A stretch of DNA of 53,631 nucleotides from Dehalococcoidia bacterium (GTDB taxonomy: Bacteria; Chloroflexota; Dehalococcoidia; GIF9; AB-539-J10): NCBI GenBank assembly GCA_016933195.1, contig JAFGBN010000058.1:1-53631 (forward strand), given 5' to 3'. Below the pieces are notes generated by a model. The model searched no databases, had not been told where the DNA came from, and saw only the letters and a program-made list of their open reading frames with translations. This document shows, one piece after another, positions 2,570 to 43,813 of the stretch; the stretch's first letter is position 1; every line of letters starts with the position of its first letter. The position numbers and the translations under genes are program-made.

Positions 2570-3910
2570 TTATCCCGCCATTGCCCCATTGCCATGATAG
2601 CTGCTCGGTATTGTGAAGCCCAGGCGCCTACCATTCCCGTTTACCTTGGATAAAGCATTGTCCACCTCCTCAATGCCGAACTTACAATAGCCCAGCTCAT
2701 CACAGCTAGGGCTGTGCCCATGCTCAATAACCAGGCTATAGAGTACTTCCTGGACTTGAGCTGGGGTATAACTTTCTGTTCTCTGGGCCAGATAATCCTG
2801 GGTATCCTCATCTATCGGGATCGTTTGAGAAAGAGACTGAACCAGCTCTCTTCGTTGCTCAAATGAAGGCAGTGGCAATAGTATGACACGGTCAAACCGG
2901 GAAGGCCGCTTCCTCAAAGCCTTATCCAGGATTTCAAGCCAGTTTGTCGTGGCTACAGTGACCACTTCCCTGCATTCCTCGACTCCGTCAAGTGCTGACA
3001 GCAGAGTTGCTAAGGCTCCACCTCTGGAATAGTGGGACTGCGTTCTTCCTTCGCCTATAAGGTCAATATCTTCAATGAATACCATGCTTGGCCTCAGGTC
3101 TTCAGCCAGCTCATACAACTCGAAGATGTATCCGCTATGAAGCAGGTCGCTTCCGGTGGCCAGGATACAGGTAATGCCAGAGCTATTGTTCAGCAGTATT
3201 TTGCATATCAAGGTCTTACCGGTGCCTGGTTCACCTACTAGCAGGACGCCCCTCCGTGCAGGTATGCCATACGTGGCGAGCTCATCTCTCCTACCGAGAA
3301 AGCCGGCTGTGTTAGCCACAATCTCATCCTTCAGCGACGGAGCTAGCGCCAGGTCCTGCCAGCTCTTTGATGATGGCTTCAAGAAGCTGATGCGATGGCT
3401 GAAACCCAGCTTCTTGCCTTTGTAGAGGTTGTGTTCCCTGGTAATCTTGTGGACTCCTTCAGTAAACTGGTGGGCTTCATCTGTTGCATTGCTGGAGGCT
3501 GTTACTACCAGCGAAGCAGGTCGCATTGACGTAGCGTGTATAGTAGCTAGAAGACGCTTACTTTCTTTTTGCAGGAGCAAACGACCGCCACACAGGATAT
3601 TTTCGTATTGGTCATAATCGGTGTTAACATCGGTATATCGTGGTGCTGGGTGACTGTAGGAAAGGATGCTAACGACCTTCCAGTCCTCGGCCTCGACATA
3701 GCGCTGAAGGGCCCAGGAAAGCAGGTCACCATAATACCTCGGCACTATGATTGGTACATCTGTCTTCTTCCCCTGGCCCAGGAACCTGGCAATCGTCTTT
3801 GCGCTTCTCTTTTGCTGAGCCTGAATATTCGCATACGGGTTGCCATCGTCATCATCCTCCTCCATATTCAGGGCCTCTATGATCTCCTCCGTCTCCTCGT
3901 CAAAACTCAT
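2570..3910 (-). CDS. AAA+ ATPase of unknown function
   Basis: About 446 residues from the chosen ATG; a longer start at 3961 is possible, but AAGGAGG lies 13 bases before the 3910 start. The N-terminus is very acidic (EEDDDDGN). An uncharacterised region of about 170 residues follows, then a single AAA+ module with Walker A GEPGTGKT, Walker B VFIEDIDL and an RPSRFDR arginine-finger-like segment, so ATP hydrolysis is expected. The module resembles the FtsH/spastin/Bcs1 class. It is transcribed away from the WYL regulator, with an inverted repeat in the shared intergenic region, and is followed by two tiny coupled genes. Substrate and partners cannot be read from the sequence. Confidence 0.8.
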   Translation of the reverse strand: MSFDEETEEIIEALNMEEDDDDGNPYANIQAQQKRSAKTIARFLGQGKKTDVPIIVPRYYGDLLSWALQRYVEAEDWKVVSILSYSHPAPRYTDVNTDYDQYENILCGGRLLLQKESKRLLATIHATSMRPASLVVTASSNATDEAHQFTEGVHKITREHNLYKGKKLGFSHRISFLKPSSKSWQDLALAPSLKDEIVANTAGFLGRRDELATYGIPARRGVLLVGEPGTGKTLICKILLNNSSGITCILATGSDLLHSGYIFELYELAEDLRPSMVFIEDIDLIGEGRTQSHYSRGGALATLLSALDGVEECREVVTVATTNWLEILDKALRKRPSRFDRVILLPLPSFEQRRELVQSLSQTIPIDEDTQDYLAQRTESYTPAQVQEVLYSLVIEHGHSPSCDELGYCKFGIEEVDNALSKVNGNGRRLGFTIPSSYHGNGAMAG

Positions 3911-27042: not shown

Positions 27043-27080
27043 TCAGCCACCTAGTACTAATGTCAGCCACCTAGTACTAA
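27043..27080. repeat. tandem pair of TCAGCCACCTAGTACTAA
   Basis: Two 18-base copies, two bases apart, directly upstream of the pilB promoter. The 13-base core CACCTAGTACTAA occurs again at 42659-42671 upstream of pilT. Confidence 0.7.
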
Positions 27081-27087
27081 GTATTCA

Positions 27088-27115
27088 TTGACAACTTGGT
27101 TCATTATGTTAATAT
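27088..27115 (+). promoter_or_regulatory. pilB promoter, leaderless layout
   Basis: TTGACA, 16 bases, TAATAT, with the ATG at 27123 only seven bases after the -10 box and no ribosome binding site. Confidence 0.6.
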
Positions 27116-27122
27116 TGATACT

Positions 27123-29483
27123 ATGTCTACGAAGGCAACAATGGCAGCGAGGGAAAGTCAAATAAAGCAACTCAGTAGCCAGCTCGTTCAGCGGTTTGAG
27201 AGCCAGCACTATGAGGTGGAACAAAATGCCACTGCTAAAGGCAAATCTGGAGGCGAACATAGCTTTGACATCTTAGCGCGCAAAAGCCATGATTTTGTCA
27301 CCTATACTATTGCCGTAGGCATTATCGCTTCTGACGATAATCAGGAGATAAGCTTGGGGGAGGCATTCGCCTTTGATGACAAATGCTATGACTGTGGCAT
27401 TCAAGATAAGGCTCTCATAGCTCTCCCCAAACTTGATTCCATGGCCACCCGCTTCGCCCAGGGACAGCGAATAAAAGTCTTCGACGAGGAAAGCCTGAAG
27501 ACCCTCTTATCTTCGCCATTACCCACCCCCCCAGCTAAAGAAGGCCCATTCAACTGGCAAACAAAGTCCCAATTTCTGGAATCTTTAGCTAAGTCTGGCT
27601 ATAACGTCGAGGAGACCGCTAAGGTTACAGGAAAATCAGGAGCTGAATACGTTTTCGACATCCTGGCCTCCCTGGATGATGGCCTAATAGCACACAAGCT
27701 AGGCATAGATATAATAACCAGTAACGAAGTCAGCCTGAGCCAAGTATCCCTGTTCGACACCAAAACCTATGATACTGGAATTTACAACAAGGTCATGCTT
27801 ATCTCAGGTGAACCTACCAAAGAAGCAGAGCAATTTGCCTCTCAGCAGAGGATAAAGATACTCAGACTTGGCAGCCAAAAGGGGAAGACCCCCGTCAAAG
27901 AGGAGGCCTCCGGGGAAACTATTGTTGAAGCCCCCGGCAAAGCTGAAGCGCTTGGCCTTCAAAACGCACTTGAGAAAGTGCTGGCTCAGGTGCCTGAGGA
28001 AAAACTGTTCAGGCGCAGGTCTCAACCTGAAGCCTTACAGTTGATTCCTGAAGCTATGGCAAGAAGATTTAATGCCATGCCAATAGCCATTATGAACAAT
28101 GCCCTACAGGTGGCTATGGCAGACCCCACCGACATCTTTGCCCTGGAAGCCCTGGCATTACAGAGCCGCATGAGAATAGAACCCGTAGCTGCTAGTATGA
28201 AACAAATTCGGGAAGCCATTGACTTCAACTATAAAAGCTTCGGGCAAATCGAAGAACAAATATCCCGTATTCCGGGAACAGAGCCAGCTGACGTACAAAC
28301 ACTGATTGAAGCCAGTGAGGATGCTCCAGTAGCCAGCGCTTTGCGCATCATAATAGATGAGGCAAGTAAAGCCAGAGCCTCTGACGTTCACATTGAGCCA
28401 GATGAAGATAGACTAAGAATCCGCTATCGCATTGATGGCGCCCTTCAGGATGTCATGTCCCTTCCCCTGAAAATACATCTCCCCCTTACCTCCCGAGTGA
28501 AAATAATGGCTGATATGAATATTGCCGACCATCTTCGCCCTCAGGACGGACAGTTTTCTATTGAATCTAAAGGCAAGCCTTTAGATGTTCGTGTGGCCAC
28601 CTCCCCCACCGTGCGTGGTGAAACCACGGTGCTACGCCTTCTGGATAAGTCACTGGCGGTCATAGACATGGCAGAGTTAGGTTTTTCTCCCCATGCTTTG
28701 GCTAAATATGAAGATATGCTCAAGGTTCCTTTCGGTATGATTCTAATCAGCGGTCCCACAGGAGCAGGCAAGACCACTACCCTTTACGCCTCAGTAAACA
28801 GGCTGGATAAGATATCCCGAAACATAATCACCATTGAGGACCCCGTGGAGTACCACTTTGCCAATATGAACCAGATTCAGGTCAATGCCAGGGCAGGAGT
28901 TACCTTTGCCAGCGGGCTACGCAGCATATTGCGTCTCGACCCTGACGTCATACTTGTAGGTGAGATTCGCGATGCCGAGACCGCCCGGATAGCTGTTCAA
29001 TCAGCTTTGACAGGCCATTTAGTCCTCTCTTCCATCCACGCCAATGATGCCATAGGCGTTATCTTCCGCCTACTCGACCTGGGTATAGAACCCTTCCTGG
29101 TATCGTCGGCAGTTATCGGCGTGGTAGCTCAGCGTATGGTACGCCGTATCTGCCCCGATTGCTCCACCTATTCAGAGGCTTCCTTAGTGGAGCAATCGGC
29201 TTACGCCGATGAGATGGAAGAAAAGCGGACTGAGTTTCTCTACGGCACTGGCTGTGAGCTATGCAGCTATACCGGATATCGGGGAAGAACAGGACTTTTC
29301 GAAATTTTGCGCCTTAGCGACAGGACAAGGATGCAAATACTTAATCGTGCCAGCACTGCCGAGATTCGACAGCAGGCGATTGAAGAGGGAATGGTGCCCT
29401 TAATTAAGGACGGCATGCTCAAAGTAAAGGACGGCATCACCACCGTATCCGAGGTCCTGCGTAACGCTTACTTTACAGAGTAG
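27123..29483 (+). CDS. pilB: PilB-type pilus extension ATPase with two N-terminal Mrr-like domains
   Basis: 786 residues from ATG 27123; a TTG nine codons earlier overlaps the promoter. Residues about 10-130 and 140-250 are two copies of one domain (KSGGEHSFDILA and KSGAEYVFDILA), like the PD-(D/E)XK Mrr fold but without the later ExK residues. Then come an MshEN domain (about 275-365) and the GspE/PilB ATPase with GPTGAGKTT (about 544), DPDVILVGEIRD, SSIHAND and a zinc motif CPDC...CELC (about 677-713). It powers pilus assembly at the inner membrane. First gene of the pilus locus, with its own promoter. Confidence 0.92.
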   Translation: MSTKATMAARESQIKQLSSQLVQRFESQHYEVEQNATAKGKSGGEHSFDILARKSHDFVTYTIAVGIIASDDNQEISLGEAFAFDDKCYDCGIQDKALIALPKLDSMATRFAQGQRIKVFDEESLKTLLSSPLPTPPAKEGPFNWQTKSQFLESLAKSGYNVEETAKVTGKSGAEYVFDILASLDDGLIAHKLGIDIITSNEVSLSQVSLFDTKTYDTGIYNKVMLISGEPTKEAEQFASQQRIKILRLGSQKGKTPVKEEASGETIVEAPGKAEALGLQNALEKVLAQVPEEKLFRRRSQPEALQLIPEAMARRFNAMPIAIMNNALQVAMADPTDIFALEALALQSRMRIEPVAASMKQIREAIDFNYKSFGQIEEQISRIPGTEPADVQTLIEASEDAPVASALRIIIDEASKARASDVHIEPDEDRLRIRYRIDGALQDVMSLPLKIHLPLTSRVKIMADMNIADHLRPQDGQFSIESKGKPLDVRVATSPTVRGETTVLRLLDKSLAVIDMAELGFSPHALAKYEDMLKVPFGMILISGPTGAGKTTTLYASVNRLDKISRNIITIEDPVEYHFANMNQIQVNARAGVTFASGLRSILRLDPDVILVGEIRDAETARIAVQSALTGHLVLSSIHANDAIGVIFRLLDLGIEPFLVSSAVIGVVAQRMVRRICPDCSTYSEASLVEQSAYADEMEEKRTEFLYGTGCELCSYTGYRGRTGLFEILRLSDRTRMQILNRASTAEIRQQAIEEGMVPLIKDGMLKVKDGITTVSEVLRNAYFTE

Positions 29484-29536: not shown

Positions 29537-29971
29537 ATGCAGAATATAATAAGCCCTAAGCACGAAACCCTAAATGAGAATCAAATTGCAAAAACCAAAA
29601 TGCAAAATGACAAAGCAAGATTCAAAAATGAATTTAAGGGCCGCGTGTACAAACTTGCATTGGATGTAATAGCATTCATGGAGCAATTGCCAATGGAACA
29701 AACTTCGAGGATTATCAGCGACCAGTTGTTGCGGAGCACTACCAGCATTGGTGCCAACGTGATTGAGGCTCAGGCAGCTTCTCCAAGGAAAGACTATACC
29801 AATTTCTTCAATTATTCATTGAAATCGGCAAATGAGTGCAAGTTCTGGTTAGGATTGCTCAGAGATTCCAGCCGAGGCGACAAAGAGACCGTCAATAGAC
29901 TTCTAAAAGAGACCACGGAGATTGCCAATATACTTGCCACCAGTGTTCTGACCTTGAAAGGGAGAAAATGA
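29537..29971 (+). CDS. four-helix-bundle protein (23S rRNA intervening-sequence family)
   Basis: 144 residues. The core KLALDVIAFMEQLP, SDQLLRSTTSIGANVIEAQA and FFNYSLKSANECKFWLGLL is the S23/four-helix-bundle family found in 23S rRNA insertions and elsewhere. Its role is unknown. The N-terminal 30 residues (ENQIAKTKMQNDKARFKNEF) come from A-rich reiterated sequence (words like CAAAATGCAAAATGAC) and are probably not core. It lies between pilB and pilC, flanked by AT-rich repeats, which suggests insertion into the pilus operon. Confidence 0.75.
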   Translation: MQNIISPKHETLNENQIAKTKMQNDKARFKNEFKGRVYKLALDVIAFMEQLPMEQTSRIISDQLLRSTTSIGANVIEAQAASPRKDYTNFFNYSLKSANECKFWLGLLRDSSRGDKETVNRLLKETTEIANILATSVLTLKGRK

Positions 29972-30073
29972 GGCACTTTTGCATTTTGAATTGTAATTTT
30001 GATTTTTTATCTTTGACCTTTGATATTGTTTAGGATTTAGAGTTTAGGTATTAGTTATTTAGGTGAGGTGGTC
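29972..30073. repeat. AT-rich reiterated sequence between the four-helix gene and pilC
   Basis: Short reiterated words GCATTTTGAATT, TTTGACCTTTGATATT, TTTAGGATTTAGAGTTTAGG. Similar text is found at 15650-15720, 17125-17200 and 42485-42625. Confidence 0.5.
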
Positions 30074-31285
30074 ATGGATTATCAATATACGGGCTACACC
30101 GAGGATAAGAGAATAGTAAAAGGGAGGCTTTCCGCTTCCAGTGAGGAAGCTGCCACCGATATGCTGGCTTACAGCGGCTGCAAGGTACTCAGCCTCAAAG
30201 AGATTACGCCATTTGTCAAAGGTGCGGGCTTTTCTGCCCGCTTCTCCCCGATAAACCCGATGGAAGTGATAATGTTCACTCGCCAGCTAGCTTTGTTGCT
30301 GGAGTCAGGCACCGATATCGTCACTGCGCTGGAGCTATTGCAGGCTCAGGTGACCAGCCGCAGCTTGAAGAAGATAATTGCTGGCGTGGTTGAGGATATT
30401 CGTAGCGGTAGCCCTTTCTCCCAAGCTCTGAGCAAGCACCCCCATGCTTTTCCCCAAACCTATCATCGGCTGGCAGCAGTGGGGGAAAAAACAGGGAATC
30501 TAGAAGTGGTATTAAGGCGAGCCGCTGACTACATGGAAAGGAACCTTACCACGCAAAAAAAGGTAAAGAACGCCTTAATTTACCCCGTTATCCTTTTTAT
30601 CCTGACTATCGGAGTCGTCGGGGTAATGGTGGGGTTCGTTTTCCCTGCCTTCACCAGCTTTTACGCGTCTTTTAACGTCGAGTTGCCTGCAACAACCAGA
30701 GCGCTTATCGCCCTCACCGATTGGCTGCGGAGTTACGGCCTCTGGATTCTGCTGGTTATAGTGGTCATCATAGCGGCAGGATACGCTTATACCAGGACAC
30801 CGGCGGGCAGGTACCAATGGGGTAAGTTAATGCTAACCTTGCCCCGCTTCGGGCATATCAACCTACTCAATGAGCTTTCCCGCTGTTGCCGCAGCCTGGC
30901 ATTGCTGTTTAGCAGCGGTTTACCGCTGCCCGAGGCAATGACCCTGGTCATTCAGGGCACCAATAATAAAGCTATGGAAGCAGCGTTGAGTGAAGTCCAG
31001 CAGGACATGATTGCCGGTGCCGGCTTATCTGGCCCCATGGCTAAGAATAAGCTTTTCATGCCCCTCATGGTACAGATGACCGCTGTGGGTGAGGGCACTG
31101 GTAACCTGGATAGCGCACTAACCACTGTAGCCCAAAGCTACGAGACCGAGGCGGATGATAAAACCAAAGCTCTCGTTGCCGTTATTACTCCAGCTACGAC
31201 TGTAATTATCGCCTTAATAATTGGTTTCATTGCCATATCCCTGGTCTCGGCTATGTACTCCATCTACGGCTCAGTGAATGTCTGA
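30074..31285 (+). CDS. pilC: PilC-type inner-membrane platform protein
   Basis: 403 residues from ATG 30074 (GAGGTGG upstream). Couples the PilB motor to pilin assembly. It has two GspF/PilC domains, each with the family signature (LALLLESGTDIVTALELL and LALLFSSGLPLPEAMTLV), and three membrane segments (about residues 170-195, 215-240 and 370-398). The N-terminal DYQYTGYTEDKRIVKG is typical of the family. Cognate partner of the pilB at 27123-29483. Confidence 0.93.
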   Translation: MDYQYTGYTEDKRIVKGRLSASSEEAATDMLAYSGCKVLSLKEITPFVKGAGFSARFSPINPMEVIMFTRQLALLLESGTDIVTALELLQAQVTSRSLKKIIAGVVEDIRSGSPFSQALSKHPHAFPQTYHRLAAVGEKTGNLEVVLRRAADYMERNLTTQKKVKNALIYPVILFILTIGVVGVMVGFVFPAFTSFYASFNVELPATTRALIALTDWLRSYGLWILLVIVVIIAAGYAYTRTPAGRYQWGKLMLTLPRFGHINLLNELSRCCRSLALLFSSGLPLPEAMTLVIQGTNNKAMEAALSEVQQDMIAGAGLSGPMAKNKLFMPLMVQMTAVGEGTGNLDSALTTVAQSYETEADDKTKALVAVITPATTVIIALIIGFIAISLVSAMYSIYGSVNV

Positions 31286-31464: not shown

Positions 31465-31944
31465 ATGCCACGGCCAAAGAAGCTTTGTAAAGTCCTTCAG
31501 GACAACTCCAAAGGCGTGGGGCTTGTTGAGGCGCTAATCGCCGTGGCCATATTGGGAATGATTGCCGTAGCCTTTCTCAACGGGCTATTCACTGCCTTCA
31601 AGTCCGACATCGTCGCCAGTGAACAGACTACTGCTGAGAGTCTGGCCAGGAGTGAGCTGGAGTATCTCAGGAACATTAGTTATGACTCCTTCTACAATTC
31701 CGATGAGCCTCCATCGCTCCTCTTCCCATACGAGCTTCCAGATGACCCTCCCGAGTGGGATCCATCTCGTGCCCTTGATGAGCATTATGCTGGCTACACA
31801 ATAGACGTCAGTGGTGTGCCTATCGACCCCGACAGCCACGAAGTACTACCATCTGGAGACAAGGGCATGCTCGAAATGACGGTGGAGGTCTATCATCAGG
31901 GACACCTTGTGCTTACCACCAGCACTTATAAGGTGAGCAGATGA
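31465..31944 (+). CDS. minor pseudopilin, PilV/GspI-like (cassette A, gene 1)
   Basis: 159 residues. Prepilin leader of 17 residues (MPRPKKLCKVLQDNSKG), cleaved before VGLVEALIAVAILG, with Glu at +5 and a hydrophobic helix. The exported domain is acidic and aromatic. It is paralogous to 35107-35568: leaders and about 50 bases of upstream DNA match. The stop overlaps the next gene's ATG by four bases (ATGA). The 178-base gap before it contains only a 21-codon frame at 31297 behind AGGAGG. Confidence 0.85.
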   Translation: MPRPKKLCKVLQDNSKGVGLVEALIAVAILGMIAVAFLNGLFTAFKSDIVASEQTTAESLARSELEYLRNISYDSFYNSDEPPSLLFPYELPDDPPEWDPSRALDEHYAGYTIDVSGVPIDPDSHEVLPSGDKGMLEMTVEVYHQGHLVLTTSTYKVSR

Positions 31945-32432
31945 ACTGGCTACATAAAAACGAAGGGGGCTTTACCTTACTTGAGCTTTTGATATCTCTA
32001 CCCATAGCAGCCCTTGTTGTATATGCCGCCACGGGGGCAATTTTTCAGGTGTTGAATAGTACGCGTGCCAGCAACTATATTCTTGCTTACAGGCAGGTGC
32101 AGACTGCCGGATACTGGGTCACCAACGATGGTATCCAGGCACAAGACATCAGCGTTCCCGCTTACCCCGGCTTTCCCTTCACACTTAGCTGGACCGACTG
32201 GGACGATGATGAAGTTCACGAGGTTGAGTATTCTCTAGATGGAACGGAACTCTGTCGGCAGGAGACCATCAACGGTGGCGGGACAACCACTTTCGTGCCA
32301 GGCCAAGATTTTGATTCATCACGGACCAGTTGCGAGTGGGATGGCAGTGTGCTTACCTTCTGTGTAACAGCGACGCTGGGCGAGCAAAGCGCCACCAGGA
32401 CCTATGAGATTAAACCTCGACCCCTGGCGTAA
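31941..32432 (+). CDS. minor pseudopilin, PilW-like (cassette A, gene 2)
   Basis: 163 residues. Short prepilin leader (MNWLHKNEGG) cleaved before FTLLELLISLP, Glu at +5. The C-terminal domain ends in RTYEIKPRP, closely matching RTFEVKPRP of the cassette B gene at 35876-36391. Cysteines at CRQE, CEWD and FCVT may form disulphides outside the cell. Translation is coupled to gene 1. Confidence 0.85.
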   Translation: MNWLHKNEGGFTLLELLISLPIAALVVYAATGAIFQVLNSTRASNYILAYRQVQTAGYWVTNDGIQAQDISVPAYPGFPFTLSWTDWDDDEVHEVEYSLDGTELCRQETINGGGTTTFVPGQDFDSSRTSCEWDGSVLTFCVTATLGEQSATRTYEIKPRPLA

Positions 32433-32466
32433 GAAATAAGTGTAACGCTGTAATAGCATAAGTTAG

Positions 32467-35025
32467 ATGATAACTAAAACGAAAGCTATGTTGGCCCGAA
32501 TAAAGAAGGGTGAATCAGGGCAGGGCGCTCTGATTGCGGTCTTGCTGCTGCTGGTTTTGGGTTCTCTCACGATTCCACCACTTCTTGGCCTGGTACAGAC
32601 TGGTCTCAAGGCAGGCCAAATTCACGAAGCCAAGCTGCAGGAATTTTATGCCGCCGATTCCGGCGTGGAGGACGCGCTGTGGCAAATCAAGAACGACAAG
32701 ATGGAAGACCTGTTTGGGACTTACAACCCCTATGACTACGCTGAGGAATATTCCTACTCGTTCGACAACACCATCAACGAGAAGTCGGTAGATGTCACCA
32801 TACAGAATATCTGGCTTCCCGAGGGCTATATATCTGAGCCTACTCCTGCCGAGGCACAAGCCATCATCGACGACGGCACGCTGGTGCTGACCGGCAGGGC
32901 CATCACTGATTCAGAGTACCAGCTCAAGATAGTGTACAATTACCAGAATCTGGAAGACTGGGAGGATATCTGGGATGACCTTGAAATCACCACCCTGGGC
33001 ATCTGGCTGCCAGCCGGCTTCATCTACGTCGAAGGGTCCAGCAACCTCGAGCAGGACCCTTACGACTGGGAGCCCGAAGACCCCGAGCCCTACAAGGGCG
33101 GCCAGGCTATTGTCTGGGACTTCGGTAGCGGTGCCCTGTTCACAGAATTTCCCAGCGTTGACCTAGAGGGTTACCCCCTGGTAGCCAAAATCAGCTTTCA
33201 GTTCACCTCTCCGCCCAACCGCAGGCCCAACTCCGCCGTATCATGGATAAGCACCGACGGGTTGGACGACATCTCTTACACCTGGGATGCCGACACCAGA
33301 ATGTACAGCATCGAGTCCACCGGCAGCGACACCGAGACCGGTAGTCAGAGCGTCGTTGAGGCCTACACCGCCAAGAGCGAGATAAGAAAGATGAGCAATG
33401 CCATGCAGGCAGACTACTTCGCCACCGGCAATAGCCTGCTAAGCCCAACAGGCGACGTCAATTACCGCAACAGACTCCACAAGGAAGCCAGTGCTACCGT
33501 CGAGACCGATGAGGACGGCCTAGAGGGAATACCCTCACAGGGGATGGTGGAGGCGGCTTTCCTCTACTGGACCGGCTGGATAGACTACCACGGTTATGAC
33601 CCCGAAGGCGGCGACATAGTGATATTCGAAGATGACTGCACGGACCTGTACTCCCCTGCTTCTAACTGGGACTATGGGGACGACTGGCACGAATCTGGGT
33701 CATATACAGCATTCTACGCACACCACGATGGCGACCACGGGTCCAACGACAGAATCCTGACCACCAAGGAAGGTCTGGTGGACCTCAGCGACACATCGGG
33801 GAAAGAGGTCACGGTCTCCTGGCGAAGCTGGAACTGGGATTCAGGAGCTCAGGATACAGACGACTGTCTCTACTACTCCTACTCAGGTGACGGAGGTAGC
33901 ACCTGGAGCAGCTGGCAATCAGCCTTTTGCAACGACATTGGCACTTCGCCAGACACCTATAGTTATCAAATCCCGGATAGCACCACCTACCGCACAGAAA
34001 ATGCCAGAATCAGGTTCGGCATATCCACCTATAGTGGCTCTAACGAGTACGTCTATGTCGACAACGTCAGCATCAGTACCGAAGGCTCCGCCGGAGGCAG
34101 CCTTGAATATCCCGACGACCCCACTCCCGAGAAACTGACCACGCTGGTCGAGGATACCGCCAGGGTCAATACCGTTCGTTTCGGCATTGAGCCCTCCAAC
34201 ACCGTGACCATAGAAGCCGACTACTGGGAAATAGAGCCAACCACCGGCACGACCTGGGAAGGGACCTGGTCATACTGCTGTCTCAAGGACGTGACAGACC
34301 TTGTCACCGACTGGATTGAAGAAGAAGACCTGGGCGAAAATGGAGCAGGCACATATATTCTGGGACATGTGGTCGCGGAGAACGAGGTCGACCCGGGCTA
34401 TTCCTTTGACCTTTATCCCGGCAGCGAAGATACCGGCTACCCCCTGGGCACGCCCGCGCTGGAGCACAGCCTGATTTACCAGTACTCGCATGCTGGCTGG
34501 TCGCTCATACTCCTCTACACCAGCCCTCAGACTAAAGGGCATCAACTCTACCTCTATGACATCTACGACCCAGATTTCGAGTTCACCGAAGCCTGGGAGC
34601 CCAGCGGCTATCCCAACCCTGACTTCGACGGAGATGGCGAGCCCGGTGGCCAAATCAGTGGCTTCCTGGTACCTGAGCCTATCGAAGGTGAAGAAATGGC
34701 AGCCAAGCTCACCATATTCGCAGGCGAAGGTGATATAGGTATAACCGGCGAACATGTAGAGATAAACGGTGACAGAATATCGGAGCCTCCTATCAACCCC
34801 GACGGGAATATGTGGAACTCCCAATCGCCCGGGTTGAGTGAGGACGGCATAGACGTTGACACTTTCTACATTGAATGGACCGACGGCATTCTGGAACCGG
34901 GGGACACCCAGGCGCAGGTAGACCTGCCCACCGGCAGCGACGGTTTCAATCTCATATACATTGTCCTCTCCTTCCGCAGTGATATTATCACCGGCGGCAC
35001 CATAGGCTACCTGATACACGGATGA
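32467..35025 (+). CDS. 852-residue PilX-like pilus protein with large surface domains (cassette A, gene 3)
   Basis: N-terminal membrane helix (about residues 18-42) followed by FYAADSGVEDALWQI, the PilX-type segment. The prepilin site GQGALIAVLL lacks Glu at +5. The exported part is acidic and rich in D, E, G, Y and W. AAFLYWTGW (about 363) and GWSLILLYTSP (about 677) look like two halves of one DUF3344-like domain. Between them, residues about 388-540 form a separate jelly-roll-like unit. By eye its base composition is more GC-rich than flanking genes. Likely pilus-tip adhesin (inference). The start shares AAGTT-GATGATAA context with the cassette B gene. Confidence 0.75.
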   Translation: MITKTKAMLARIKKGESGQGALIAVLLLLVLGSLTIPPLLGLVQTGLKAGQIHEAKLQEFYAADSGVEDALWQIKNDKMEDLFGTYNPYDYAEEYSYSFDNTINEKSVDVTIQNIWLPEGYISEPTPAEAQAIIDDGTLVLTGRAITDSEYQLKIVYNYQNLEDWEDIWDDLEITTLGIWLPAGFIYVEGSSNLEQDPYDWEPEDPEPYKGGQAIVWDFGSGALFTEFPSVDLEGYPLVAKISFQFTSPPNRRPNSAVSWISTDGLDDISYTWDADTRMYSIESTGSDTETGSQSVVEAYTAKSEIRKMSNAMQADYFATGNSLLSPTGDVNYRNRLHKEASATVETDEDGLEGIPSQGMVEAAFLYWTGWIDYHGYDPEGGDIVIFEDDCTDLYSPASNWDYGDDWHESGSYTAFYAHHDGDHGSNDRILTTKEGLVDLSDTSGKEVTVSWRSWNWDSGAQDTDDCLYYSYSGDGGSTWSSWQSAFCNDIGTSPDTYSYQIPDSTTYRTENARIRFGISTYSGSNEYVYVDNVSISTEGSAGGSLEYPDDPTPEKLTTLVEDTARVNTVRFGIEPSNTVTIEADYWEIEPTTGTTWEGTWSYCCLKDVTDLVTDWIEEEDLGENGAGTYILGHVVAENEVDPGYSFDLYPGSEDTGYPLGTPALEHSLIYQYSHAGWSLILLYTSPQTKGHQLYLYDIYDPDFEFTEAWEPSGYPNPDFDGDGEPGGQISGFLVPEPIEGEEMAAKLTIFAGEGDIGITGEHVEINGDRISEPPINPDGNMWNSQSPGLSEDGIDVDTFYIEWTDGILEPGDTQAQVDLPTGSDGFNLIYIVLSFRSDIITGGTIGYLIHG

Positions 35026-35106
35026 GGGGACCACCCATGCGAAAAAGACACGCTTAGACTGAAATGAGGAATAACAGAAAGCAAAAGCTTGAAAAACGGG
35101 TTAGTT

Positions 35107-35568
35107 ATGTCACGGCTAAAGAAAGTTTGTAAAGTCCTTAAGGAGAACTCAGCGGGCATGACCCTTAGTGAGATAATAATGGCGCTGGCTATCCTGGGTT
35201 TAGTCGCTATTACCTTCCTTGTCGGCGTATCCACCACTCTCAAAGCCACCTCCACCGCTGGAGAGCAAGCTACTGCTCAAAGCTTAGCGCAAAGTCAGAT
35301 GGAGTATCTCAAGAGCCAGGAATATGAAACTGCTCCTTCAGAGGGTGAGGTAACCTATGATAAGATTAGTCTCTCATCATACCCTGACTACTACATCAAG
35401 AGTGCCGACCGTGACAGCAATATCGTCGATGAGATAACAGGCATCCCCTGGGATTCAGAAAATAACCAACCTTCGTCCGAGGATGGGGGTATTCAAAAGA
35501 TAGCAGTCGTAATTTATCATGACACTACATCGGTGCTCACACTGGAGGACTATAAAGTAGACCGCTGA
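35107..35568 (+). CDS. minor pseudopilin, PilV/GspI-like (cassette B, gene 1)
   Basis: 153 residues from ATG 35107; the upstream TTG at 35089 is less likely because the paralogue at 31465 starts at the matching position. Leader MSRLKKVCKVLKENSAG cleaved before MTLSEIIMALAILG, Glu at +5. Upstream DNA from about 35056 (GAGGAATAACAGAAAGC) matches that before 31465. An acidic globular domain follows. Confidence 0.85.
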   Translation: MSRLKKVCKVLKENSAGMTLSEIIMALAILGLVAITFLVGVSTTLKATSTAGEQATAQSLAQSQMEYLKSQEYETAPSEGEVTYDKISLSSYPDYYIKSADRDSNIVDEITGIPWDSENNQPSSEDGGIQKIAVVIYHDTTSVLTLEDYKVDR

Positions 35569-35875
35569 TGCCATTTCTCCTTGAGGGGGGGAGCGAAGCA
35601 ACGCTGCAATCCCCTCCTCTTGATGGGAGAGAATTAAAGTAAGGGTGATGAAGTTATTGCAAGTAGCCGAAGCCATGAGTTCTTCGCTTCCCTTCATTCT
35701 GAAGGAGAGAAGCGATCGAAGAATCTCGCTCAGGATAGACTTTGCGAACGAAAAGGAAGCGTGGCAACCTTATAAGTAAATGAAAGCGAGACAGCCTTCA
35801 ATGCTAAGAAACCTTCTTTGTCATTCTGAACTCCGTGGACGAAGAACCTGTCGGAGACTCTTCGCTCCGCTCAGA
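35569..35875. repeat. repeat-filled gap inside cassette B
   Basis: Holds three dispersed elements: a hairpin of the CTCC/GGAG family with AGTAAGGGTGATG (35575-35650), an ATTCTGAAGGAGAGAAGCG type (35693-35742) and a CATTCTGAACTCCGTGGACG type (35821-35882). The last supplies the start of the next gene. Cassette A has no such gap. Confidence 0.7.
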
Positions 35876-36391
35876 GTGACACCCTCCAACAAATATAAAC
35901 ACCAAAAAGGGTTCACCCTAATTGAGATGATAATAGTCGTTGCCTTGATAGGCATGATTTCCGCAGCCGCCACTATGGCCATACATCAAGTACTCACCGG
36001 CACCACGTTAAGCAATGACCTCAACACCGCCATAAACCAGATACACAACGCCGGCTACTGGATTAACCAAGATGTCCAGATGGCAAAGCCAGGCAGTGAC
36101 ACTATAGTTGACAGCAGTCAACTTGATGACCCGGACTTCCTTCAGTTGACAATCTGGAAAGATGCCACTGGCGATACCACTCACACGGTTATGTACACTC
36201 TCCAGGATGGAAAGCTGTTGCGGGATGGGCAACTGATTGCCGAATACATACAGCCCAAACAGGAAGGCGTAACCTGGTGTGACTGGGATGAGACAACTTT
36301 GTTGCTGACTGCGACCATCACTGCTCAGATAGGTGAAGAAATAGAAGCGAGGACATTTGAGGTGAAGCCTCGTCCTGACCCTGTTTCCTAA
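35876..36391 (+). CDS. minor pseudopilin, PilW-like (cassette B, gene 2)
   Basis: 171 residues from GTG 35876, giving a normal leader MTPSNKYKHQKG cleaved before FTLIEMIIVVALIG. An ATG at 35780 would add 32 residues (including CHSELRGRRTCRR) that are simply a translated dispersed repeat, so it is rejected as the main start. The GTG itself lies in the end of that repeat. The rest is homologous to 31941-32432, including the RTFEVKPRP end. Confidence 0.8.
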   Translation: MTPSNKYKHQKGFTLIEMIIVVALIGMISAAATMAIHQVLTGTTLSNDLNTAINQIHNAGYWINQDVQMAKPGSDTIVDSSQLDDPDFLQLTIWKDATGDTTHTVMYTLQDGKLLRDGQLIAEYIQPKQEGVTWCDWDETTLLLTATITAQIGEEIEARTFEVKPRPDPVS

Positions 36392-36420
36392 ACCTTGGAG
36401 GCAAAGTAAAGATAATGCAA

Positions 36421-36448
36421 TTGACGTAAAGCTAGAGCATGGTAAAAT
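36421..36448 (+). promoter_or_regulatory. promoter candidate before cassette B gene 3
   Basis: TTGACG, 16 bases, TAAAAT. Transcription would start near 36455, about 54 bases before the gene. Confidence 0.45.
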
Positions 36449-36508
36449 GAAATTGATGATAAAGTGCCCAAAAGAGAACCACATTATCAGATGCAGTAGC
36501 AAAGTTGG

Positions 36509-37633
36509 ATGATAATGATTCACATGGCAAAAGGAATATTGAGGAACATAATCAAGGAGCAGAAAGGGCAGGTCTTGCCTATAGTATTGATTCTTCTGGT
36601 TATAGGCGGGCTCCTCATGGCTCCCACCCTGGACTATGCCTCCACCAGCCTCAAGGGACACCAGGCTACCGAGACGAAAACGATGGAGCTTTACGCCGCC
36701 GATTCGGGGGTGGAAGACGCCATTTACTGGTTACCTGAGTTGCGGCAGAACGGAGGGTCAGCGGGGCCCTATACTAACTGGACACGGGATAATATCTACG
36801 AAATAAATACAAAAGATGTAGATGTTTACATAGAAGATCAAGGTGAGAATATCTACAAAATCACCTCCACGGCTACCAGTAACGGCGGAGGCATTAGCAA
36901 AATTGAATCATATGTGGAAGCTATCCCTGGAGGCAATCTTGATATCTTCAGTGGCGCCCTTTCCAGCAAAGGTGACATATCGTTGGGCAAGGACTCTACG
37001 GTCACAGGCGACATCTATTGTGGCGGAACATTTACCTATAGCAGTGGTTTCACGCATAATGATGGAGAGGTGATAGAGGTTGGGCCAGATGCATTCCCCA
37101 CTCAAGAACAGGATGAAGCATTTGCTCAAGCACTCAAGGAGGAGGCGTTGCTTGGAGGGACACTGCCGGGCCTGACGGTAGACTCTGATATCGAACTAGG
37201 GCCAAAATATATTGATGGGGACCTTTATGTCACGGAAGAAATCATAATCACCCTTACGGGAACAATCTACGTTGAAGGCAGTATCAGAGCGCAAAAGGAC
37301 TATACAGTTACAGGGTCAGGTTCCATAATTGCCACAGGCGATATCTACATGAGCAAGCTCGCAGATTACGGTACCGCAGGTGACTCTATCATAATGTCTC
37401 TCAATGGCAACATTACTTTTAAGAAGGAAGCCATAATAGAGGCGCTGATATATGCTCCCAACGGAACAATTGCGTTTGACAAATCGGCTACCGTAATCGG
37501 AGGCGTGGTGGGAGCGAACATTCAAGCGGATAAAGAAGGCTCTTTTACCTATATCCCGAGAGAGAACCCCATCGAATTCCCCGGTGCTCTTCCAGGTGGA
37601 TTGGAACTCAAAACATACAATATTAATCCGTAG
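36509..37633 (+). CDS. PilX-like pilus protein with bactofilin-like beta domain (cassette B, gene 3)
   Basis: 374 residues (ATGs five codons further in are alternatives). Membrane helix GQVLPIVLILLVIGGLLMAP is followed by LYAADSGVEDAIYWL, matching the cassette A gene. The exported part from about residue 150 has repeated short strands around G, S and T (GDISLGKDSTVTGDIYCGG, IIATGDIY, ALIYAPNGTIAF, VIGGVVGANI), as in bactofilin or beta-helix polymer-forming domains. Likely a surface or tip protein of the pilus. It lacks the jelly-roll and DUF3344-like parts of its cassette A paralogue. Confidence 0.75.
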   Translation: MIMIHMAKGILRNIIKEQKGQVLPIVLILLVIGGLLMAPTLDYASTSLKGHQATETKTMELYAADSGVEDAIYWLPELRQNGGSAGPYTNWTRDNIYEINTKDVDVYIEDQGENIYKITSTATSNGGGISKIESYVEAIPGGNLDIFSGALSSKGDISLGKDSTVTGDIYCGGTFTYSSGFTHNDGEVIEVGPDAFPTQEQDEAFAQALKEEALLGGTLPGLTVDSDIELGPKYIDGDLYVTEEIIITLTGTIYVEGSIRAQKDYTVTGSGSIIATGDIYMSKLADYGTAGDSIIMSLNGNITFKKEAIIEALIYAPNGTIAFDKSATVIGGVVGANIQADKEGSFTYIPRENPIEFPGALPGGLELKTYNINP

Positions 37634-38662: not shown

Positions 38663-39058
38663 TTATAAGCTAAGGGCTTCTTTCAGTCGCTCATCGAGTT
38701 CTTTTTGTATGCCAGGGCTGATTTTACCAAGGCGGCGAATAAGCCTGGTTCTTTCAATAGTCAAGAGTTTCTTCATTTTGAATACCGAAGCCTTCTTTAG
38801 ACCAGTTTGGTAGAAATCAGGGTGATTTGGCGCTAGCAGAAAATCGGCCATAGGCAATTCTCCGGACGGCACTATAGAGGAAATAAAGGCAATAACAATA
38901 TCAGATTCCTGCGGCTCGGCAGAGATTATGACCGCTGGTCGCAATTTTTCAGTAGTCAAGTCGGTAAAAGGAAAGGGGACAAGCACAATATCACCACGCT
39001 TGAGGTGGATTCCTAACGGGTTAGCCAACTCCTTCCCCGTCTTCGCCAGTATAAACAT
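38663..39058 (-). CDS. PemK/MazF-family toxin (module 2)
   Basis: 131 residues. The MazF fold is shown by RGDIVLVPFPFTDL followed by KLRPAVIIS, and by IAFISSIVPSG. The family cuts mRNA. The N-terminus is about 20 residues longer than most members, and a start nearer to RGDIVL is possible though no good codon is seen. It overlaps the antitoxin gene by 38 bases. The C-terminal half (KKASVFKMKKLLTIERTRL) is standard. Confidence 0.88.
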   Translation of the reverse strand: MFILAKTGKELANPLGIHLKRGDIVLVPFPFTDLTTEKLRPAVIISAEPQESDIVIAFISSIVPSGELPMADFLLAPNHPDFYQTGLKKASVFKMKKLLTIERTRLIRRLGKISPGIQKELDERLKEALSL

Positions 39059-40432: not shown

Positions 40433-41023
40433 TTGAAGATAAGTAGAACAAGTCGGTGGATTTTGACCATTGGCATACTGGCTATTATTCTCATCACTCT
40501 TGGTGTCATGTATTCCCGCCACAAGGCAACACAAGATGAGCTGACAGCCAATATCGCCCAAGCTCAACAGAGCTTCCTGAAATACAGCCAGGAAGCGGCC
40601 GAATATACAACGCAAAAGAATGAGCTGGAAGCCAGCTTAAGCGAAGCTAATTCACGAATTGCCAGTGCCAAGGACAAATTCCGCCAACGCACTCGTACTC
40701 AATCCATAGAAATCAGCGAGATATTGTTCCAGGCTGCCGACAGTGCCGCTGTGACCATAACCGAGCTCGGCTGCTCACCGCCTCAAGAAGAAGAGATAAA
40801 CGGAATTACTTACCATGTCTTCCTTATTGACATCACTGCCAAAGCATCTGCTAGAGAGATAGTTTCATTGCTCAACTTCAGTAATAAGATAAGTGACGGA
40901 TTCTCTACTGCCGCTACAGAATCGGTGGAGATAACTGTGCCTCCCGAAGCGGAGGAAGAAGAGGGTCAAGAAATGCCGTCAATGGAATTGCGACTAAAAA
41001 TCTATTTTTATGAAGGCGAATAA
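40433..41023 (+). CDS. PilO-like pilus alignment protein
   Basis: 196 residues from a TTG start; no ATG is available before the membrane segment. One membrane helix (about residues 9-27, WILTIGILAIILITLGVMY), a coiled coil (30-85) and a small alpha-beta domain (95-195) match PilO layout. The acidic run PEAEEEEGQEM sits near the end. The stop is two bases before the pilM-pilN gene. PilO pairs with PilN in the inner-membrane alignment complex. Confidence 0.75.
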   Translation: MKISRTSRWILTIGILAIILITLGVMYSRHKATQDELTANIAQAQQSFLKYSQEAAEYTTQKNELEASLSEANSRIASAKDKFRQRTRTQSIEISEILFQAADSAAVTITELGCSPPQEEEINGITYHVFLIDITAKASAREIVSLLNFSNKISDGFSTAATESVEITVPPEAEEEEGQEMPSMELRLKIYFYEGE

Positions 41024-41025
41024 CG

Positions 41026-42465
41026 ATGTCCACCACAATATACATAGATGACTCAGCTATCCGGGTGCTGGTAGCCCGGGGTAGGAAAGTACGAAGCTGG
41101 GCAACCATGCCTCTGGAACCAGGCCTGGTTAAGGACGGGCTTATCTTAGATGAGGATGCCATAGCCAGGAAAGTGAGAGAGCTTCAGCGAGCTGAGCATA
41201 CAGGAGACAGAAAGGTTATCGCTGCCATCAGCGGCATCAACTGCCTTTACCGCTCACTCACGCTTCCCGAACTACCCAAGGACTTATTACCTGAGGCAGT
41301 AAGGAGGGAAGCGAGCAGAGTTCTAGGAGTCCCCTTAGAACAACTTTATCTCTCATGGCAAGCTCTTCCCTCATTGAAGGGAGAGACTCTGGTTTATCTG
41401 GCAGCCTTACCAAGGAATTCCGCCGATGCCCTAATCTCAGCGCTACGCAAAGCAGGATTGAACCCCTATCTCATAGACTTGAAGCCTCTGGCCCTGGCCA
41501 GAACCATCACGGAGTCCAGAGCCATTATCATTGACCTCCAGCCCGGCAGTTTCGATGTCGTAGTAATGGCAGAAGGAATTCCCCACGTTGCGCGCAGCCT
41601 GTCCTTGCCTCAGGAAGCTTCACCGGAGGAGAAAATCCCCACTATCACAGGGGAACTGGATAGAGCCATCACCTTTTATAATTCCGGTCACAGGGATAAG
41701 CCCATTGACAATGCTGTGCCTTTGTTGGTGAGCGGGGAGCTTGCCGAACAGGAGGATGTCTGGAGCCTCCTGGCAGGCAGAGCACGCCGTCCCATTCAGA
41801 CATTACTCCCACCCATGGAATCACCCGAAGGCTTCCCCTCAAACCAGTACACCACTAACCTCGGCCTGGCTCTCAAAGAGCTGGCTCCAGAGAAAGGAGC
41901 CGCTTATTCTCTGGTCAACCTCAATGCCCTTCCAGAGGTCTACATTCCCAAACCACGTCCCGTATCCGAGGTTCTCTTTATTCCCACTATCATAGCTGGT
42001 ATTGCCCTGGTGGCTCTGGGTCTTTTTCTTACTATCCCCAAGTTCGCTCATACCACTGCCCTGCGCCATGAGCTGGCAGTCACGAACCAGAGGGCCACTT
42101 CACAGATTACCCAAACCACCGATATAAGCAACGCGATAGCCCCACTTCAGGAGCAAGTTTCCTCGATTGAGGCGACTACCGATGCCTTCACTACCACGTT
42201 TAGCAATTTTGCTGCCGGGCGTGATGAAGTCAATGGCGATTTAAGCCAGATAAATAATTGCTTGCCTGCAGCGGTGGACTTAGGAAGTGTAGCTCACAAT
42301 GGCGATACCCTGGCGATAAAAGGCCTGGCTGATGGTGAGGATGACATCTTTCGCTACGCCAAAGACTTGAGAGACACCAACAGGTTTGCGCTGGTGGTCA
42401 TCACTGACATGGAGCAGGAGGACTATCTCATGCGCTTCACCCTGACGCTTACCAAACAAGGATAA
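41026..42465 (+). CDS. PilM-PilN fusion protein
   Basis: 479 residues. The N-terminal part (1-310) is an actin-like PilM domain: YIDDSAIRVLVARG, VIAAISGINCLYRSLTLPEL, REASRVLGVPLEQLYLSWQ, IIIDLQPGSFDVVV. A membrane helix follows (about 323-343, LFIPTIIAGIALVALGLFLT), then a PilN-like periplasmic coiled coil and alpha-beta domain. PilM and PilN are usually separate proteins, with the N-terminal tail of PilN binding PilM. Here they are one chain. It lies between pilO and pilT. Confidence 0.8.
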   Translation: MSTTIYIDDSAIRVLVARGRKVRSWATMPLEPGLVKDGLILDEDAIARKVRELQRAEHTGDRKVIAAISGINCLYRSLTLPELPKDLLPEAVRREASRVLGVPLEQLYLSWQALPSLKGETLVYLAALPRNSADALISALRKAGLNPYLIDLKPLALARTITESRAIIIDLQPGSFDVVVMAEGIPHVARSLSLPQEASPEEKIPTITGELDRAITFYNSGHRDKPIDNAVPLLVSGELAEQEDVWSLLAGRARRPIQTLLPPMESPEGFPSNQYTTNLGLALKELAPEKGAAYSLVNLNALPEVYIPKPRPVSEVLFIPTIIAGIALVALGLFLTIPKFAHTTALRHELAVTNQRATSQITQTTDISNAIAPLQEQVSSIEATTDAFTTTFSNFAAGRDEVNGDLSQINNCLPAAVDLGSVAHNGDTLAIKGLADGEDDIFRYAKDLRDTNRFALVVITDMEQEDYLMRFTLTLTKQG

Positions 42466-42742: not shown

Positions 42743-43813
42743 ATGGAAAATATTATCGATTTGCTGCGGCTAGCTAATGAAAACGGCGCCTCCGACCTGC
42801 ATCTGGTAGTCAATGCGCCGCCTATGCTGCGCATAGATGGCACACTGGGCTCTGCAGATGGAATGCCGCCAGTGTCTCCCGAGGAAATAAGCCAGGCCTT
42901 TATGCAGCTAACCACACCGGAGCAAAGGGAGGAATTTCAACATTCCCTGGAGCTTGATTTCGGCTATACTCTCCCTGGCGTGGGCAGGATTCGCTGCAAT
43001 GTTGCCCAGCAGCGTGGAGCTATCAGCTTTGCCCTGCGTCTTCTATCACCTGTAATTCCCACTATAGACGAGCTGGAACTGCCTCAGCTATGCAAGGAAT
43101 TAGCCTTGAGACCCAGAGGCCTGGTGATAGTCTCCGGACCTACCGGAAGCGGTAAAACCACCACCCTGGCAGCCATGATTCATCACATCAATGCCAATAG
43201 AGCCTGCCATGTGGTTACCATTGAAGACCCCGTAGAATATAACCATCCTAACTTCAAATCAGCCATTACCCAGCGAGAGCTGGGCACAGACACCTTGTCC
43301 TTCGGCAAAGCCCTGAAGCATGTACTAAGGCAAGACCCGGATGTCATCCTGGTCGGTGAGATGAGAGATTTGGAGACCGCTGCCGCTGTGCTCAACGTGG
43401 CGGAGACAGGACATCTGGTGCTTACTACTGGCCATGCTCCCAGCGCAGCCCAGGCCATGGAAAGAGTCATAGACTTATTTCCACCCCATGAGCGTTACCT
43501 GGCCCAGGCAAGACTGGCCTCCCTGATTATCGGCGTCCTATCTCAGACCTTAGTGCCGCGGGCCGATATCTCAGGAAGAATAGCTGCTGTGGAAATAATG
43601 CTCGGCAGCACGGCGGTGAAAAACCTTGTTCGCGAGGGAAAAATTTATCAACTCCCCAATATCATCCGTACCAGCAATCAAGAAGGCATGCAGACTCTGG
43701 ACCAATCCCTGACTAACCTCTACTTCAGAGGAATTATCACTGGCGAGAGCCTGATAAGGTTCTGCAATGATAAAGATGAGGTAGAGAAAACCATGGAAAA
43801 GATGCCTGCCTAA
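42743..43813 (+). CDS. pilT: PilT twitching-motility retraction ATPase
   Basis: 356 residues. Disassembles pilins at the inner membrane and so drives retraction. PilT signatures are GASDLHLVVNAPPMLRIDG (residues 14-32), VSGPTGSGKTTTLAAMIHHI (about 132), VEYNHPNFKSAITQRELGTD, DPDVILVGEMRDLET, HLVLTTGHAPSA and GRIAAVEIML. No ribosome binding site is seen. Confidence 0.95.
   Translation: MENIIDLLRLANENGASDLHLVVNAPPMLRIDGTLGSADGMPPVSPEEISQAFMQLTTPEQREEFQHSLELDFGYTLPGVGRIRCNVAQQRGAISFALRLLSPVIPTIDELELPQLCKELALRPRGLVIVSGPTGSGKTTTLAAMIHHINANRACHVVTIEDPVEYNHPNFKSAITQRELGTDTLSFGKALKHVLRQDPDVILVGEMRDLETAAAVLNVAETGHLVLTTGHAPSAAQAMERVIDLFPPHERYLAQARLASLIIGVLSQTLVPRADISGRIAAVEIMLGSTAVKNLVREGKIYQLPNIIRTSNQEGMQTLDQSLTNLYFRGIITGESLIRFCNDKDEVEKTMEKMPA

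Follow-up and report, generated by a model that had tools for sequence, protein, structure and literature searches.

A nuclease-derived domain pair at the N terminus of a Dehalococcoidia PilB-type motor as a possible docking or regulatory module

The pilus operon and its motor gene

The window, that is, the whole 53,631-nucleotide stretch of Dehalococcoidia contig JAFGBN010000058.1 analyzed here, contains a type IV pilus operon in which an intact open reading frame (27123 to 29483, plus strand, 786 amino acids) encodes a PilB/GspE-type pilus extension ATPase with an N-terminal pair of probably dead nuclease domains, hereafter the dyad. The start codon is uncertain (TTG at 27096, ATG at 27123, or ATG at 27141), but the choice among them leaves the domains unaffected. 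Behind the dyad, a linker (residues 250 to 290, positions 27870 to 27992) that has no RLGxxL... c-di-GMP motif and in which the MshEN_N subdomain is absent leads to an MshEN_C subdomain (Pfam MshEN match at residues 291 to 371, E value of 5e-17, positions 27993 to 28235). The T2SSE/PilB ATPase core follows (residues 397 to 780, E value of 9e-124, positions 28311 to 29462), with the P-loop GPTGAGKTT, the Walker B region DPDVILVGE, and CxxC pairs. The motor missed both NCBIfam equivalog cutoffs, with 518 bits for GspE (630 needed) and 507 for PilB (676 needed), so that "PilB-type" is meant broadly here, as membership in the same superfamily rather than as a typed equivalog.

The pilB gene heads the operon, and the gene order is the same in relatives. 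Downstream, all on the plus strand, lie pilC (T2SSF, 30068 to 31285) and a span of type IV pilin-like genes (31465 to 36391), three of them with N-methylation motifs (31465 to 31944, 31941 to 32432, and 35780 to 36391) and a further one (35089 to 35568) with a motif just below the cutoff. They are followed by a pilO-like gene (40433 to 41023), which has no Pfam match and was named from its position and its homologues between the pilins and pilM, a gene for a PilM-PilN fusion-like protein (41026 to 42465), and one for a PilT-type retraction ATPase (42743 to 43813).

Some other features of the region were recorded. An 18-bp exact direct repeat (TCAGCCACCTAGTACTAA, spacing of 20 bp, positions 27043 to 27080) lies just 5' of pilB and is a possible regulator site. 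Between pilB and pilC (29537 to 29971, plus strand) there is a gene for a four-helix protein of the 23S rRNA-intervening-sequence type (PF05635, E value of 5e-20), and related reading frames adjoin pilT at loci L057 and L102. The pilin-like genes and the subsequent large pilus gene (31465 to 37633, plus strand) look like two similar sets in succession, and a MazF/PemK-like toxin gene (E value of 5e-13) occupies positions 38663 to 39058 of the minus strand within the pilus region.

Two PD-(D/E)XK repeats precede the motor

The dyad consists of two PD-(D/E)XK (Mrr-like) repeats, the first at residues ca. 11 to 130 (27153 to 27512) and the second at residues ca. 146 to 249 (27558 to 27869). The segments quoted in the original prediction, which had read this region as tandem Mrr-like domains fused to a PilB motor, are located at residues 41 to 52 (KSGGEHSFDILA) and 171 to 182 (KSGAEYVFDILA). 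Independent lines of analysis bore this reading out. The two repeats aligned with each other with 36% identity over 105 amino acids (E value of 3e-21), and the isolated N terminus matched Pfam Mrr_cat with 24.0 bits (cutoff of 21), a match that was not reported for the full-length protein, while homologous dyads matched the same family with E values down to 4e-12, clearly past the cutoff. An AlphaFold2 model built with 40 homologous dyads (pLDDT of 93.5, pTM of 0.87) contained the abbb-a-b-a-b PD-(D/E)XK topology twice. The best PDB match of this model in Foldseek was AF1548 (1y88, E value of 3e-6, probability of 1.0), which was also, weakly, the only PDB relative found by sequence; MspJI, AspBHI, Can2, EndoMS, Bax1, and RPB5 scored lower. 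The structure prediction, obtained via homologues, thus gave a PD-(D/E)XK fold and not an unrelated one, and chance resemblance was discarded on the basis of the repeat alignment, AlphaFold2, and Foldseek together.

An artefactual fusion through gene prediction or assembly was also rejected, since the same fusion was found again in genomes assembled as one contig and across many families. The dN/dS values of the dyad were 0.06 to 0.15 in 7 of 10 pairs and reached up to 0.40, compared with 0.03 to 0.29 for the motor. The dyad evolves faster than the motor yet is constrained and under purifying selection; with values well under 1, it is not a decaying remnant. An anti-phage defence protein was another candidate, for which PADLOC gave no meaningful match. 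Sequence, model, and phylogeny together show that the dyad is genuine and conserved as a pair; it is of Mrr descent and most likely no longer cuts.

The catalytic lysine motif is lost and the acids only in part

We aligned 144 repeats to a canonical Mrr domain from the same class (an SNF2-Mrr protein, L104, D...QCK) and to AF1548 (D...ECK). In this alignment, the strand motif [DEQ]xK was present in none of the 144 repeats, while the beta-2 Asp was kept in 133 of them (92%). Repeat 1 of the window retains this Asp (D49) and has no QxK; repeat 2 retains it as well, with an Asp at the E/Q site (GIDI) and the Lys absent. That second Asp, at the position taken by Gln or Glu in catalytic Mrr proteins, occurs in 98% of PilB second repeats. 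The loss of the active site had been predicted from the missing ExK residues, and this holds for the lysine motif in all compared repeats, but the acids are lost only in part. Judged from these alignments, nuclease activity of the dyad is most likely absent.

The remaining acids leave room for a second repeat with an altered catalytic or metal site, made of the beta-2 and beta-3 Asp, and with some nuclease or phosphodiesterase activity. Both Asp (or Glu as the second) together with a conserved Lys in the next helix are found in 83% of PilB second repeats. Nevertheless, [DEQ]xK is missing throughout, the helix Lys lies on the outer face in a helical-wheel estimate, and the TackOD1 dyads (see below), which are the closest paralogues, mostly have Gly at the beta-3 site, and we regard residual activity as highly improbable. 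Beyond these acids, an H/Y at or near the old active site is 98% conserved, a helix Asp is likewise strongly conserved, and the two repeats have in common the set H/Y-x-x-D, FDxKAYDxGI, and a K/R before beta-4, which argues for a retained function.

Distribution and architectures of the dyad

We searched a class sample of 294 Dehalococcoidia genomes and a phylum sample of 400 Chloroflexota genomes, many of which are fragmented metagenome assemblies, so that absences are soft. Within the class, 43 genomes had a dyad match and 104 a PilB-type motor (E value of ≤1e-60). In the phylum sample, the 18 dyad-positive genomes were all inside Dehalococcoidia, with none among the other Chloroflexota, and one scan of genome contigs likewise gave Dehalococcoidia only. 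A full-length TackOD1 protein occurred in 19 genomes of the class sample, and each of these had the dyad as well.

Three architectures were found. In the first, that of the window, the dyad is fused to PilB; it is spread over many Dehalococcoidia families, with examples in genomes that consist of a single contig. The four dyad-bearing f16 genomes tested had 27 to 30 reductive dehalogenase matches each, which suggests that they are Dehalococcoides- or Dehalogenimonas-like, the names being deduced from these matches. A PilB with four repeats, as two consecutive dyads, is encoded at L091 (1570 to 4866, minus strand, genome G142). In the second architecture, the dyad is the C terminus of TackOD1 proteins of ca. 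450 amino acids. Their genes lie directly upstream of a dyad-less pilB at nine loci (L026, L029, L030, L033, L034, L035, L036, L041, and L043) and beside pilT/pilM, prepilin peptidase, or pilin genes at five others (L092, L095, L101, L102, and L039). The last of these is in the window's own genome (G000:C59), where the TackOD1-dyad paralogue adjoins a prepilin-peptidase-like gene; its structural model (pLDDT of 87.5) again gave Foldseek matches to the PD-(D/E)XK part, with no clear structural clue to the TackOD1 domain. In the third, a REC domain and a linker precede TackOD1 and the dyad (ca. 680 to 785 amino acids; L050, L052, and L053), with operon partners encoding a GAF histidine kinase, an OmpR-type regulator, a family 2 glycosyltransferase, and an NDP-sugar epimerase. 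The window PilB had no match to the Cys-rich TackOD1 domain (PF18551), and no TackOD1 protein was detected in the Dehalococcoides-like genomes with a fused PilB.

In the Dehalococcoides-like genomes, a gene for a LuxR-type response regulator (REC-LuxR) lies directly upstream of pilB. A receiver-type gene is found directly 5' of pilB at L089, L090, L092, L093, L096, L098, and L057 and also at L156, where PilB is bare; Pfam backed the REC-LuxR identity at L089 and L156. By eye, an ECF-sigma-like gene was noted on the opposite strand near pilB at L089, L096, L098, and L156. Also by eye, two small Roadblock/LC7-like reading frames (L040, 5289 to 6421, minus strand) are flanked by a TackOD1-dyad gene on one side and a dyad-fused pilB on the other.

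These neighborhoods bear on a reading raised in outline in the original prediction: as a nucleic-acid-binding module, the dyad would link the pilus motor to the uptake of DNA or hold the motor at the chromosome. Mrr-like domains do derive from DNA enzymes, and ComEC is encoded in the same genome. However, ComEC is also found in relatives in which no dyad or PilB was detected (e.g., G006 and G019), the dyads are acidic (median pI of 5.3 and charge of -7; 5.35 and -5.9 in the window), and their other carriers are TackOD1 and REC signalling proteins and a polysaccharide operon. The link to DNA uptake found no support here, and binding to nucleic acid in either role seems quite unlikely.

The dyad stands where MshEN_N is missing

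According to published work (PMC5013675), c-di-GMP binds these motors at MshEN_N, a subdomain marked by tandem RLGxx... motifs. The tandem RLGxxLVxxG...LxxxLxxQ motifs were absent from the window PilB and from all dyad PilBs examined. PilBs with a fused or adjacent dyad keep only MshEN_C and have no MshEN_N, while in other PilBs of the class, MshEN_N is present or recognizable. In a tree of 77 PilBs (like the dyad tree, a quick search with SH-aLRT support only), the MshEN_N-less proteins formed one supported clade of 65 rows, apart from the MshEN_N PilBs of the same class; L169, a long branch with no recognizable MshEN_N, was placed on the MshEN_N side. The clade comprised 48 proteins with a fused dyad, 9 with an adjacent TackOD1-dyad gene, and 8 that were bare. 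The fused label required at least 4 to 5 changes on this tree, meaning that the dyad was gained or lost repeatedly. In the dyad tree, the dyads of the TackOD1 and REC proteins formed one clade (96*), which contained no PilB dyad other than one of the two from L091, in a weak and unsure grouping on a long branch. At L173 (G156, ca. 3125 to 3250, minus strand), the gene for a bare PilB is preceded by a remnant of the second Mrr-like repeat, as would be left by a recent loss of the dyad or by an assembly break.

A swap that tracked the loss of c-di-GMP metabolism was rejected: GGDEF genes persist in genomes that have the dyad, so the replacement is not coupled to c-di-GMP loss, and G007 and G020, which have MshEN_N-like PilBs, are without GGDEF genes.

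The main rival to a docking role is ligand sensing, in which the old active-site cleft would bind a nucleotide second messenger or a metal and do the job of MshEN_N directly. The dyad does occupy the place of a ligand-binding subdomain, and polar residues at or near the old site (the beta-2 Asp, the H/Y, the helix Asp, and the second-repeat Asp of PilB) are conserved at the levels given above. On the other hand, it matches no known ligand-binding family, the Foldseek matches to Can2/Cdn1 could not be tied to a particular domain and say nothing about a ligand, and the conserved residues would also suit a structural network inside the protein or a surface that contacts another protein. We consider a sensor unlikely.

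Some lineages can do without the dyad, as the bare PilBs of the clade show, and this would suit a structural spacer or an oligomerization aid for the PilB hexamer with no signalling role. Its occurrence on separate TackOD1 and REC proteins and the strongly conserved residues in both repeats speak against a spacer, which appears very unlikely.

A possible docking or regulatory role

We somewhat favor the reading in which the dyad is a dead-nuclease docking or regulatory module that stands in place of the MshEN_N sensory subdomain of the motor. PD-(D/E)XK domains often dimerize. The PilB dyad would pair with its counterpart on a TackOD1 or REC-TackOD1 protein, or else with a different partner, and the contact, relayed through MshEN_C, would permit or prevent motor action or set the position of the motor. 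The company that the dyad keeps (pilus motor, TackOD1, REC, histidine kinase, and polysaccharide synthesis) points to the regulation of cell-surface machines and not to DNA, and its acidic charge may point the same way, although pI is weak evidence. The original prediction had offered protein binding as its alternative, and a module that binds protein and acts on the motor is the option favored by these data. Further in favor of docking, the repeats are always paired, including in the four-repeat PilB. Against it, the 8 bare PilBs of the MshEN_N-less clade manage without a dyad. Given the fused PilBs without a detected TackOD1 protein in Dehalococcoides-like genomes, the partner cannot be a TackOD1-dyad protein everywhere.

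A more specific form of the docking reading, which we hold to be doubtful, would be a private docking code in Dehalococcoidia, in which matching dyads on the motor and on two-component/TackOD1 proteins would carry phospho-signals to the motor and to the polysaccharide synthase operon by dyad-dyad contact, replacing the binding of c-di-GMP by the motor N terminus.

Literature searches for the fusion of this dyad to PilB returned nothing relevant and no paper describing it. The dyad has the look of a lever for motor control that has yet to be described, rather than of a device for cutting or taking up DNA. Control of PilB by c-di-GMP via MshEN is known in many bacteria, and a PilB clade in which a nuclease-derived dyad replaces the sensory part would, if true, represent a new way of controlling a pilus motor. 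Because complete genomes with many reductive dehalogenases carry the dyad, it should be testable with genes of cultured relatives.

Comparison with known systems

With the MshEN (T2SSE_N) domain of MshE/PilB (PF05157; PMC5013675), the dyad has in common the N-terminal regulatory position on a pilus or type II secretion extension ATPase, and the window PilB retains MshEN_C; the c-di-GMP-binding four-helix MshEN_N is absent, and the nuclease-derived dyad is there instead. The Mrr_cat restriction endonuclease domain (PF04471) resembles the dyad in fold, in the beta-2 Asp, and in the C-terminal strand/helix pattern, but the dyad is without QxK/ExK, always in tandem, acidic, and carried on a pilus motor or TackOD1 protein. 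A fold without the full catalytic set is also found in inactive PD-(D/E)XK domains such as NA-iREase1 (PF22722) and the N-terminal domain of RPB5, which is itself inactive. The partners of these domains differ, and the window dyad has no sequence-level match to either: the likeness to RPB5 comes from Foldseek, and the only NA-iREase1 match was the SNF2-Mrr protein used as a control (L104).

TackOD1 proteins (PF18551, arCOG06883) have been reported from the type IV pilus loci of Thaumarchaeota and, as REC-TackOD1, among regulators, without an assigned function (PMC4858521, PMC5847659). In the published archaeal architectures, TackOD1 stands by itself or is joined to REC or to REC-wHTH, with no mention of Mrr (PMC5847659, PMC4858521). 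The window PilB differs from these proteins in having no TackOD1, while in Dehalococcoidia the dyad is the C-terminal part of proteins that, like the archaeal ones, are tied to type IV pilus loci and REC. The thaumarchaeal pilus loci provide an independent link between TackOD1 and pili, and with the dyad, this obscure output domain, until now known from the pilus loci of archaea, acquires a defined molecular companion.
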